Shown: in pieces, positions 2,550 through 20,994 of the stretch | Position numbering within the stretch: position 1 is the first letter of the stretch | How the letters are laid out: each line of letters begins with the position of its first letter | DNA from: a virus | Strand: one strand, 5' to 3' | DNA length: 27,757 nucleotides | Virus record (IMG/VR): IMGVR_UViG_3300036790_000215 | Location: 1 to 27,757 of that record | Made by a program: the position numbers and the translations under genes | The notes under the pieces: generated by a model | Seen by the model: only the letters and a program-made list of their open reading frames with translations | The model's database searches: none | What the model was told of the DNA's origin: nothing

Positions 2550-4417
2550 TGCCTGGAGGCTCCCTTCGCCTCTGCAAGAGCCTTCGCAGCTGCAACCTGG
2601 TCGCGGTAGAAGTGCAGGTAGCCAAGACCCTCGCGGTAGCGCTGCGAGAAGCCATTGATGACTGCATCACCTCGGTTCGGAGAGCGCCCAATTCGGTCCT
2701 TGATCTTCTTCTTGTCCTCGACCAGAATGCCTTTCATGCTGATCGACCACCGAGGCGCTGCCAGATCAGCTGCTAACTCAGGGTCAGGTGGGAGTGCAAT
2801 CTCAAGACCAAGCTCAGGATCCAAGGCTTCTCTGAAGGTCCAATGGTCTTCAGCACGGGTATTGTGGAAGCGAAGGAGCCCTGAACGGTCAGTCGCCTCG
2901 GACCTCTCGGCTCCATTTAGTCCTGTAACGTCCATCTCCCGCAGGATACCGACGTCAACTGGTGACGAACCGACCCCCGTAACGTCAACCTTTAACGGCC
3001 AATCCTTATAGCCCAGCTCTACTAGCCAGTCAATCAGGGAAGGTCCGTCAGGCGTCTTCTCCCCATCTATGGCATGCAGGTGGTTGAACCAGCTCCCAGT
3101 ACGAGGAGCAGCCACAGATTGATCGCGCCCTCCTCGTGCAACGTCAACCCCAACTGCGCGTGAGCCAGGCATATTCGAATCAGTCCCCTGCACAAACTGG
3201 AGCCGATCACTATTCAGCTTCTGCTGGGTATCAGACAGGAAGACCGACAAGTCAACTCCAGGCCCTGCAGCTGCCACGAAGGGTATTTCTGGTGACGTTG
3301 GCCCCTTAGCGGGGGAAGAACTCAGTGATGTATCCCCGGAAGGGCTATAATCGCTGGCATCCGAAGGGTTTTGGTACCGCTTGAGACCTGTATCAGGGTC
3401 TATGGCTTCCGCGCGTTTTGCTGCCAACCTATCGTGCAGTTTGAGGAGATATTCCTCATATGTGGGGGCCCAACGCGCTTGAGCCTGCAGAATCCAAGCA
3501 CTAGGGATCACCTGCCACTCATGGTCTTCCTCAGCTACTCCAAAGTCGCCCTCAAGCATGCGGGAGCGTAAGGGCTCAGGCAATGCTTGCAGGGTTGTGA
3601 GGTAACCAGTCCGGATCAAATAGGTGTTGTCTTGGACTCGAGCCCGGATGAAGGTACGGGATGTTGGCTTGACCCACTGCTCTACGCTTGAGATCCTGAT
3701 AAACCTTGGAGTGGAGTCGGAGACCTCGATATCATCCCCGTGCTCATCCGTTATGTACCAACGGAGCTCTCCTGGCTTGGCAGGATTCGGATATAGGGGG
3801 TCGAGCCAGGCTCGCCAATAGCGGTTAACCCACTGCCCCTCAGCGTTAAGAGGCGGATTTCCTGCGGCGATGACTCTCGTCCGTACGCCCAGACGCGTTG
3901 TGCGGTTCCATCCCTTGAGGAACCTGAACTGCTTTTCGGAGAAGTGCGTAATCTCATCGAAGCCTTTGAGGTCATGAGGGCGTCCCTGGTACTTGAGCTC
4001 TCCACCTTCCCACTGGCAGGCTCCAAACTCACATGTGCGGCCTTGGTACTGCCCCTTGAAGCGCCAGAGCAGATCCATCCCGTTGTAGGAACCCCAAGGT
4101 CTGTAGAGCTCCTCCGCGCGCTCGCGGATCCCCTTCAGCTGCGCGAACTCCCTCCGGAAGATGATGCTCTGGTAGTGCTGAGTCAAGGCAGTACCCATAA
4201 GGAGGTCCGTCTTGCCTCCTCCAGCTGCACCACCATAGAAGATTTCATCGGCCAGGGAATGGTATGCCTCTGTCTGAGGGCCTGGCTGGGGCGTCCAAGC
4301 TGGCAGCGGGATATCCGCGATGAGCATGTCGATCTCAGCTATCTCATCCTCGGACAAGTACAGCATGAGATCCTCAAGCTCATTCTTGGGCTGCTGTAGG
4401 GCTTGAGTGTCACCCAT
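2546..4417 (-). CDS. Terminase large subunit
   Basis: This is the motor and nuclease that drives DNA into the capsid and cuts it. The 623-residue product has an N-terminal ATPase with Walker A GGAAGGGKT at about residues 62-70, Walker B and catalytic acid in LKGFDEIT at about 150-157, and a coupling motif in AAGNPP. The C-terminal nuclease begins at GVDVARGG, about residue 423, with the first metal-binding Asp. The frame opens at 4453, but ATG 4417 is preferred: GGAGGA lies ten bases upstream and it overlaps the preceding stop by eight bases. Roughly 100 residues of Ser/Pro/Asp-rich sequence (about 319-417) sit between the two domains, much longer than usual for this family. Confidence 0.92.
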   Translation of the reverse strand: MGDTQALQQPKNELEDLMLYLSEDEIAEIDMLIADIPLPAWTPQPGPQTEAYHSLADEIFYGGAAGGGKTDLLMGTALTQHYQSIIFRREFAQLKGIRERAEELYRPWGSYNGMDLLWRFKGQYQGRTCEFGACQWEGGELKYQGRPHDLKGFDEITHFSEKQFRFLKGWNRTTRLGVRTRVIAAGNPPLNAEGQWVNRYWRAWLDPLYPNPAKPGELRWYITDEHGDDIEVSDSTPRFIRISSVEQWVKPTSRTFIRARVQDNTYLIRTGYLTTLQALPEPLRSRMLEGDFGVAEEDHEWQVIPSAWILQAQARWAPTYEEYLLKLHDRLAAKRAEAIDPDTGLKRYQNPSDASDYSPSGDTSLSSSPAKGPTSPEIPFVAAAGPGVDLSVFLSDTQQKLNSDRLQFVQGTDSNMPGSRAVGVDVARGGRDQSVAAPRTGSWFNHLHAIDGEKTPDGPSLIDWLVELGYKDWPLKVDVTGVGSSPVDVGILREMDVTGLNGAERSEATDRSGLLRFHNTRAEDHWTFREALDPELGLEIALPPDPELAADLAAPRWSISMKGILVEDKKKIKDRIGRSPNRGDAVINGFSQRYREGLGYLHFYRDQVAAAKALAEAKGASRQ

Positions 4418-6673: not shown

Positions 6674-6788
6674 GCGGCAATTGCCTGACAGGTAAAACTG
6701 GTTTTGGTACATTTTGGGATGGGGACCCCTTCAGGCAATTGCCGCAAAGGTTAGATAGGTAAAAAGGCATTTTGGGATGAATCCCCCA
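6674..6788. repeat. Two 58-bp tandem repeat units with palindromic cores
   Basis: Each unit contains GGCAATTGCC (6676-6685 and 6734-6743), AGGTAAAA (6690-6697 and 6757-6764), CATTTTGGGATG (6710-6721 and 6768-6779) and a C-run. The first and third elements repeat exactly 58 bases apart. The palindromes extend into a perfect 15-base inverted repeat, 6674-6688 with 6731-6745. The block starts right after the HNH stop codon and no gene lies in it. It could be protein-binding DNA, a terminator or the footprint of an insertion; the function is not known. Confidence 0.8.
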
Positions 6789-19378: not shown

Positions 19379-19554
19379 CATGTGCGCAACAGGTGTCGAC
19401 ATCAGGGTCAAGATCGTTTGCTGAAACCTACCGTTGTGCTTTCTGCGGAAGGACTAGCTCAAGTCCTGGTGACCTGTGTCTACCTCACAAGAAATATGGC
19501 AGGGCTAGAATCTCAAAAAAGAGAATAGCGGTCGACCGAAAAAGACCCTCTTGA
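19375..19554 (+). CDS. Small zinc-finger protein (59 residues)
   Basis: ATG 19375 overlaps the preceding TGA as ATGA. The peptide has CAFC (21-24) and CLPH (35-38), a CxxC...CxxH zinc site, followed by a basic tail (KKYGRARISKKR). The last 25 codons overlap promoter 8, so the coding sequence and the promoter constrain each other. A nucleic-acid-binding role is plausible. Confidence 0.6.
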   Translation: MTCAQQVSTSGSRSFAETYRCAFCGRTSSSPGDLCLPHKKYGRARISKKRIAVDRKRPS

Positions 19555-19579
19555 GGTCATCTTAGGTTTCAGCTATAAT
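19530..19579 (+). promoter_or_regulatory. Rightward promoter 8
   Basis: GGTCGACC at 19530-19537, an AAAAGAC box instead of TTTTGAC, -35 TTGAGG at 19551-19556, a 17-base spacer, and TATAAT at 19574-19579. It drives the GC-rich gene at 19649. Confidence 0.85.
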
Positions 19580-19648: not shown

Positions 19649-20077
19649 ATGGCACGCGAACCGAACCAGCCGCACGGCCACGAGCATGGGCATGGCGGAG
19701 AATCGAATCCAATCCCCGAGAGCGTCCCGGCGCCTCCTGCCGCAACTGCTGCGGCGCCTGGCGTCAACGAGGCGGTGGTCCCGAGCGTCAAGGATGGCGC
19801 GAAGGTCATGCTGCAGGGTGGCGTTGCGCGCGTCGACTACATCCGCGCGCGCTACAAGCAGGGCATCGGCCGCGGGCAGATCCTCAAGGAGGTGAACGAG
19901 CGGCGGTTGTCGGGTACGAATCCCGTCAGCTACCAGATCGTGTTCTCGGCTACCAAGGGGCTCCCGAAGCCGGCAACTGGGCCGGCAGCAGCTCCTGTGG
20001 ATCCTCTGAGCATCGCGCCCAAGGATCCGGTTCCTGGCGCGATGGCGGCGGGCGAGACTTCAGCAGCTGCTGCCTGA
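19649..20077 (+). CDS. Helix-turn-helix-like protein, GC-rich
   Basis: The 142-residue product begins with a His/Gly-rich tract (HGHEHGHGG), has a central domain at 60-105 (ARVDYIRARYKQGIGRGQIL, then PVSYQIVFSATKG), and Ala/Pro-rich linkers. The order of the domain, ending in YQIVF, loosely parallels the helix-turn-helix proteins at 6920 and 10014. AAAGG precedes the ATG. Third codon positions are strongly G/C, unlike its neighbours, which suggests recent acquisition from a high-GC genome. It is the only gene between promoter 8 and the hairpin at 20098. Confidence 0.6.
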   Translation: MAREPNQPHGHEHGHGGESNPIPESVPAPPAATAAAPGVNEAVVPSVKDGAKVMLQGGVARVDYIRARYKQGIGRGQILKEVNERRLSGTNPVSYQIVFSATKGLPKPATGPAAAPVDPLSIAPKDPVPGAMAAGETSAAAA

Positions 20078-20097
20078 TACAGGATACAGGATGCTGT

Positions 20098-20149
20098 AAG
20101 GTATATCTCCCCTAGCGAACTGTGGAGGTCCGAGCGGGGGAGATACCTT
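20098..20149 (+). terminator. Hairpin, possible terminator
   Basis: AAGGTATATCTCCCC (20098-20112) and GGGGGAGATACCTT (20136-20149) pair over about 13 bp with a two-base bulge and a 23-base loop. It follows the 19649 gene by 20 bases. The trailing sequence lacks a T-run, so termination is not certain. Confidence 0.55.
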
Positions 20150-20312
20150 GCAGAGCAGGGATAGGAGCTCTAGACTGTTTATACCTCCTAGGGATAGTCG
20201 CCTAGCGTCGATTCCCGTACGGTCCGGTGATGAGCCGGTGAGTAAGGAAGGGCCCTTGAGTGGCAACCTTACTTAGCTCTATGAACACTCTATCTCCTAG
20301 CCCGACCTTCCT

Positions 20313-20406
20313 ATAATATGCATGGAGCCTCCTGGATGCAAAACGCCTACTGAGGAATGACGCATCCATTTCGAGGATAGGTGTCAGGAGTCTCCGTGTA
20401 TATTAT
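20313..20406 (+). ncRNA. Candidate pseudoknotted structured RNA
   Basis: Bases 20313-20334 pair with 20385-20406 at 21 of 22 positions, including two G-U pairs. The enclosed 50 bases can form two interleaved stems: 20335-20339 with 20362-20366 (5 bp) and 20343-20349 with 20378-20384 (7 bp, one G-U). That is an H-type pseudoknot, with the second stem abutting the outer helix. It matches no ribozyme or riboswitch I can recall. It sits in the leader of the RuvC-like gene, about 49 bases before its start, so it could be a cis-regulatory element or an independent RNA. Confidence 0.45.
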
Positions 20407-20454
20407 CGGGTTCCAGTCCCGCGCCCGCGCACGAGCACAAGAAGGTCTCATGAT

Positions 20455-20994
20455 TTGATCACACTTGAGCAACTCTACCAGCATAGTATCGAGAGGCTCA
20501 AGCGTCCTCCTGCACCAGAACGGCTCTTGAGTTTGGACCCAGGTGAGACAACAGGGTTTGCACACTTCGCAGGCCCTCTGTTTGTCCATGCTAATCAAAT
20601 CTCCACTTCATCACAGCAACTTGCCCTAGGAGAGCTAACCACTCTCCTGGAGGAGTACAAGCCTACTCTGGTAGTTATTGAGGACTACCGCGTCTATGCC
20701 AATCGTACTGCGCAACATGCAGGTTCCTCTCTCTCAACGCCTCGGCTGATTGGGATGATCGAGACCTTGTTGCTGCAGCGCGACATTCCCTTTCACAAGC
20801 AACCTGCCGGCGTCGCCAAGCAATTTGTGACAGACGATAAGCTGAAGGCTTGGGGCTTATACAGCAGAGGCTTGAAGCATGCCAGGGATGCTATTCGACA
20901 TGGCCTCTACTTCATCCTGTTTCCTCCTAAGGCTGTCTTCTCCAAGATGATCCAACCGGGCGTCTCTCGCAACGCAGGAAGGCATGTAGGATGA
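20455..20994 (+). CDS. RuvC-like Holliday junction resolvase family protein
   Basis: The 179-residue product has a RNase H-fold nuclease pattern: LSLDPGETTGFAHF with Asp28, LVVIEDYRVY with Glu76, and KHARDAIRHGLYF with Asp145. These acidic residues would bind metal for cutting branched DNA during recombination, replication or packaging. The only usable start is TTG 20455, with AAGG about 11 bases upstream. The next gene overlaps as ATGA. Confidence 0.8.
   Translation: MITLEQLYQHSIERLKRPPAPERLLSLDPGETTGFAHFAGPLFVHANQISTSSQQLALGELTTLLEEYKPTLVVIEDYRVYANRTAQHAGSSLSTPRLIGMIETLLLQRDIPFHKQPAGVAKQFVTDDKLKAWGLYSRGLKHARDAIRHGLYFILFPPKAVFSKMIQPGVSRNAGRHVG

Follow-up and report, generated by a model that had tools for sequence, protein, structure and literature searches.

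A long near-perfect RNA stem with interleaved inner complementarities before a phage RuvC-like gene: an orphan intercistronic element of putative function

The non-coding gap in front of a phage RuvC-like gene raises the question of whether the long stem that lies in it (20313-20406) is a structured RNA and, if so, of what kind. The window, by which we mean the whole stretch of DNA that was analysed, is a linear phage record from IMG/VR (27,757 bases); its gene matches include those for portal, terminase and DUF3854 proteins and for RuvC-like, thymidylate-kinase-like and DNA ligase genes, and the DUF3854 protein is probably a primase-helicase. The gap spans 377 bases (20078-20454) between the gene of a 142-aa HTH-like protein (19649-20077, + strand), whose similarity to HTH_7 is weak (E 0.0087, under the curated cut-off), and the RuvC-like Holliday-junction-resolvase gene (20455-20994, + strand), which has a TTG start. 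The initial annotation had placed its candidate in a gene-free gap before a RuvC-like gene, and both points hold, since the open reading frame list leaves the gap non-coding and phrog_159 and phrog_1770 back the RuvC-like call. As we argue here, the element is best read as an orphan, lineage-specific stretch of structured phage mRNA with a putative function.

The two arms of the outer stem (20313-20334 and 20385-20406, + strand) pair at 21 of 22 positions, through 19 Watson-Crick and two G-U pairs (20320:20399 and 20323:20396), with a single C x U mismatch at 20328:20391; on recounting, this is the same pairing as first described. In a gap-free stem scan with G-U allowed, its score of 17.5 is the highest of the window and lies above the maximum of 17.0 obtained from 200 dinucleotide shuffles of the full 27.7-kb sequence, which bears out the earlier view that such arms exceed chance. 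When folded with its exact boundaries, the element gives -44.8 kcal/mol (z -6.6, with 0 of 200 shuffles as good) as compared to -28.1 kcal/mol (z -2.6) for the opposite (-) strand, the + strand fold being stronger because G-U pairs favour the transcribed strand. These pairs, two in the outer stem and one in the inner stem S2 described below, are as expected of an RNA, though few in number. Among the 2214 segments of 100 bases on a blind grid, the place of the element ranks about 20th, with a z of -4.2, and the segments above it are mostly terminator-like hairpins. It occurs as a single copy in the window, with no visible target duplication.

A long inverted repeat could also act as DNA, for example as a cruciform or as a replication or packaging signal, and junction resolvases such as RuvC act on branched DNA. 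The repeat does adjoin a gene of this kind, but we consider a DNA-level structure very unlikely, as neither strand folds strongly as single-stranded DNA (-16.6 and -15.2 kcal/mol), the imperfect pairs are of the G-U type, which RNA tolerates on one strand, and the RuvC-like gene is present in relatives without the repeat.

Enclosed by the outer stem are two further complementarities on the + strand. S1 joins GGATGC (20334-20339) to GCATCC (20362-20367) over 6 bp, or 5 bp when 20334 remains in the outer stem, and S2 joins ACGCCTA (20343-20349) to TAGGTGT (20378-20384) over 7 bp; the two are interleaved in the layout of an H-type pseudoknot. Their stacking sum of -25.1 kcal/mol was reached by 0 of 500 and by 2 of 200 core shuffles (2/700). 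S2 is common to the nested and pseudoknotted folds, and S1 competes with an apical hairpin (GGAAUG 20354-20359 with CAUUUC 20367-20372, + strand) that belongs to the minimum-free-energy fold. Because they share bases, S1 and this hairpin are mutually exclusive. The best nested core fold, S2 with the apical hairpin, comes to -16.2 kcal/mol and, with the usual pseudoknot penalty taken as an estimate, the pseudoknotted and nested folds are predicted to be about equally stable. According to this modelling an H-type pseudoknot is possible in the element. The two interleaved stems of the initial annotation are therefore retained as complementarity beyond chance, but as a structure they have an equally good nested competitor.

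Searches against known RNA classes agree with the earlier statement that no known riboswitch, ribozyme or tRNA could be recognised: Rfam 15 gave no match in the window at the gathering threshold and only chance-level matches over the gap in a permissive search up to E 5, ARAGORN called no tRNA or tmRNA gene in the window, and the tmRNA model RF04321 had no match in G000. Despite a T-arm-like GGGTTCCAGTCCC at 20408-20420, a tRNA or tmRNA in the window was rejected, the models being unmatched. The interleaved stems and the 3-nt first loop recall, in outline, the P1/P2 crossing of HDV-like ribozymes. However, a new self-cleaving ribozyme with interleaved stems is the reading that we find hardest to credit: the 12-nt loop (CUGAGGAAUGAC) holds no P3 hairpin, there is no G.U at the base of S1 and no P4, the outer stem runs straight into S1 at what would be the HDV-like cut, and no Rfam ribozyme matches even up to E 5. 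Ribozymes of the HDV type are marked by a nested double pseudoknot with P3, P1.1, P4 and a catalytic C in J4/2; an HDV-like assignment was rejected because neither P3 nor P4 can be read from the sequence and Rfam gives no match. The description of the element as an unknown structured RNA is upheld by its folding statistics and strand bias, with no sign of an independent RNA or of a ribozyme.

Relatives were sought with three kinds of query, namely the RuvC-like protein, alignments of it and the DUF3854 protein, and the loci obtained come from dozens of phage contigs and from two Brevundimonas phage isolates; a scan of the genome collection for the RuvC-like protein gave no relative. Their RuvC-like proteins are 39-61% identical, and the gene order is kept with the element absent. 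Close relatives (RuvC-like proteins 51-61% identical) retain the order DUF3854 gene, HTH gene, RuvC-like gene. The HTH gene stands directly before the RuvC-like gene in the window and in L002, L005, L006, L007 and L008, the first four of these loci having short gaps without the element, and in L003 another gene stands between the two. Distant blastn against phages and plasmids found no match to the element, nor did annotated phages, plasmids and IMG/VR contigs contain one. One rigid and two flexible DNA patterns run over IMG/VR yielded 120 partial matches; a single one had both stems by complementarity and was judged to be chance, the outer-arm sequence being absent. A covariance model comparison with related phages, as the initial annotation had proposed, was made with R1, a model of short reach built on the single sequence; over 18 whole related records and the loci around 33 further relatives it recovered the window alone. 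With no homologue by sequence, covariance model or IMG/VR pattern, the element is an orphan. The same annotation had named the loss of pairing in phages that keep the genes as evidence against its candidate, and this is partly what we find, in that relatives keep the flanking genes without the element.

Absence from every relative examined speaks for a hairpin that has decayed or is confined to this lineage and has no function today, whether a relic of a terminator slot or a small inverted-repeat insertion. The element replaces the terminator slot of relatives, its arms close with AT-rich inverted sequence, and L038 and L037, other phages from the same gene search, have stems that are perfect inverted repeats. 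We nevertheless think this origin rather unlikely, given that the element is single copy without visible target duplication, that the differences between its arms are not random but for the most part fit G-U pairing on the transcribed strand, and that its interior pairing also goes beyond chance.

A hairpin followed by a T run, that is an intrinsic terminator, occupies the HTH-RuvC slot in many relatives (L008, L019, L039, L040, L062, L066 and others), and this suggests, from sequence comparison, that transcript-end or transcript-decoupling structures belong in this slot. The window element resembles these terminators in being a strong hairpin just after the HTH gene, but it lacks a T run, its stem is much longer, and it lies in a 377-base gap rather than a short one. 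No intrinsic terminator (hairpin, then T run) was matched on the + strand between 20077 and 20455, and the tail of the element reads CGGGTTCC. A second long hairpin in the gap (20094-20153, + strand) sits at the terminator place of relatives, also without a T run. In L008 (IMGVR_UViG_3300045413_000166) the slot holds, in order, a terminator, a 17-bp long-stem element (1167-1275) and, just after it, a permuted two-piece tmRNA (1291-1543; RF04321, 113 bits; tag ANDSVYAVAA), and two-piece tmRNAs of phages have been described (PMC9004378). The long stem of L008 has no pseudoknot beyond shuffles. The L008 tmRNA is comparable to the window element as a non-coding RNA in the same syntenic slot with a long stem just before it, but the window has no tmRNA match. 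The slot of L003 contains a tRNA-like fold, and its structured gap measures about 290 bases. This fold (3868-4002) is a cloverleaf with a 7-bp acceptor stem, a D-like arm and a perfect T arm (GTGGGTTCGAATCCCAC), in which three hairpins replace the normal anticodon and variable region; it is not called by ARAGORN and scores only 21.9 bits with RF00005.

These occupants lead to the main rival, which we place second after an intercistronic hairpin: an independent or processed small phage ncRNA of about 100-380 nt on the same transcript, for instance protein-binding or host-acting, the HTH-RuvC slot being a docking place for ncRNA genes. Such an RNA is possible but, in our judgement, doubtful. The whole 383-nt stretch folds more stably than its shuffles (z -3.6), the pseudoknot complementarity is beyond chance, and the permuted tmRNA of L008 and the tRNA-like fold and structured gap of L003 occupy the same slot; against this, the gap has no + strand promoter match, the 18 related records, the loci of the 33 further relatives and the IMG/VR patterns hold no homologue, and the tmRNA and tRNA models are unmatched in the window. 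The nearest candidate promoter for a gap RNA is a sigma-70-like match, TTGAGG-17-TATAAT, before the HTH gene (19551-19579, + strand). A TATAAT at 20312-20317 was rejected as a promoter for want of a -35 match at the usual distance. In the window, CTCAAAAAAGAGA stands at 19511-19524; the stretch is conserved in L002, L005 and L006, close to where the DUF3854-protein region ends, but is read in another frame in the window, and it contains A AAA AAG, a heptamer familiar from frameshift sites.

Long stems are also present elsewhere in the collected loci, where 37 of them enclose 30-120 bases in 1.1 Mb (overlapping stretches included). Pseudoknot complementarity went beyond 60 shuffles in few cores, including those of L014 5737-5877 and L095 413-499. 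The L014 stem has 27 positions and its core also went beyond 200 shuffles. Both elements (the L095 one more widely 379-531) are intergenic, come from phage G010 and have AGGCCT...AGGCCTGGTACAA in common. They have the outline of the window element and no sequence similarity to it, and since many cores were tested and few matched, no class is claimed. It seems improbable that the window element represents a new phage ncRNA class, with a compact H-type pseudoknot that is borne on a long outer duplex, switches with a nested hairpin and serves to control or process a recombination-gene transcript. L026, L025 and L080, whose phages have a primase or RuvC-like gene in common with the window, contain further long stems around 50-90 bases that fold more strongly on the + strand. 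The one at L026 5814-5945 (same in L027 and L028) is a 29-position stem with many G-U pairs around 74 bases, ends just before a 672-aa gene, and folds at -79 kcal/mol on the + strand and -58 on the - strand. In the window itself, a perfect 15-bp inverted repeat (GCGGCAATTGCCTGA/TCAGGCAATTGCCGC) encloses 42 bases at 6674-6745, after an HNH-like gene.

The reading that we favour, tentatively and with somewhat less than even confidence, is that the element is an intercistronic structure of an HTH-RuvC read-through transcript, namely a hairpin for RNase III-type processing or for stability, with a possible further role in gating RuvC translation. Given the promoter match before the HTH gene and the lack of any match to a terminator in the gap, transcription probably runs across the gap within an HTH-RuvC message. 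This transcript would start before the HTH gene (19649) and read through the gap into the RuvC-like gene (20455). The outer duplex would then be a target of RNase III; its likeliest role would be to part the HTH and RuvC messages and stabilise the ends, and the pseudoknot or apical hairpin inside would cap it. A near-perfect duplex of 21-22 bp is the classical shape of an RNase III substrate and an exonuclease barrier, and the 21 of 22 paired positions of the outer stem are in keeping with the near-perfect 20 bp or so, or more, that such hairpins call for. RNase III hairpins of the type seen in T7 early mRNA are similarly intercistronic, with about two turns of near-perfect duplex and no U tract; unlike them, the window element has an interior that can form a pseudoknot, which an RNase III hairpin does not require, and this counts against our reading, as does the lack of a homologue and hence of covariation. 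In its favour, the stem is beyond chance, its fold is stronger on the + strand, a terminator or other hairpin fills this slot in many relatives, and L026, L025 and L080 show other long stems with this strand preference. The element belongs to a known kind, the structured intercistronic phage RNAs.

A link to translation is suggested by the predicted fold of the whole gap, in which a 7-bp helix (GACCUUC 20304-20310 with GAAGGUC 20441-20447) closes a domain around the element. Its 5' strand, GACCTTC in the DNA (+ strand), is the predicted partner of the ribosome-binding site of the RuvC-like gene, as bases 20441-20447 are part of the Shine-Dalgarno AAGAAGGTC (20439-20447, + strand). The helix is predicted to bury this site in five folding contexts (mean unpaired 0.16-0.20). 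Burial that strong was found in 4.5% of upstream shuffles, so that the hidden Shine-Dalgarno is, in these models, marginally beyond chance. When the element was deleted in silico the site was still hidden (unpaired 0.167); since the helix forms without the element, burial is independent of it. The burial in five contexts speaks for the intercistronic reading, its marginal strength and this independence against it. Cleavage or refolding may still switch RuvC translation through the buried ribosome-binding site.

In conclusion, the HTH-RuvC slot of this phage group alternates between terminators, a permuted tmRNA, a tRNA-like fold and an orphan structured RNA, which makes it a place to seek phage ncRNAs. 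Should the inner pseudoknot exist and the ribosome-binding site indeed be buried, the element would be a phage leader linking RNA processing with expression of a junction resolvase.
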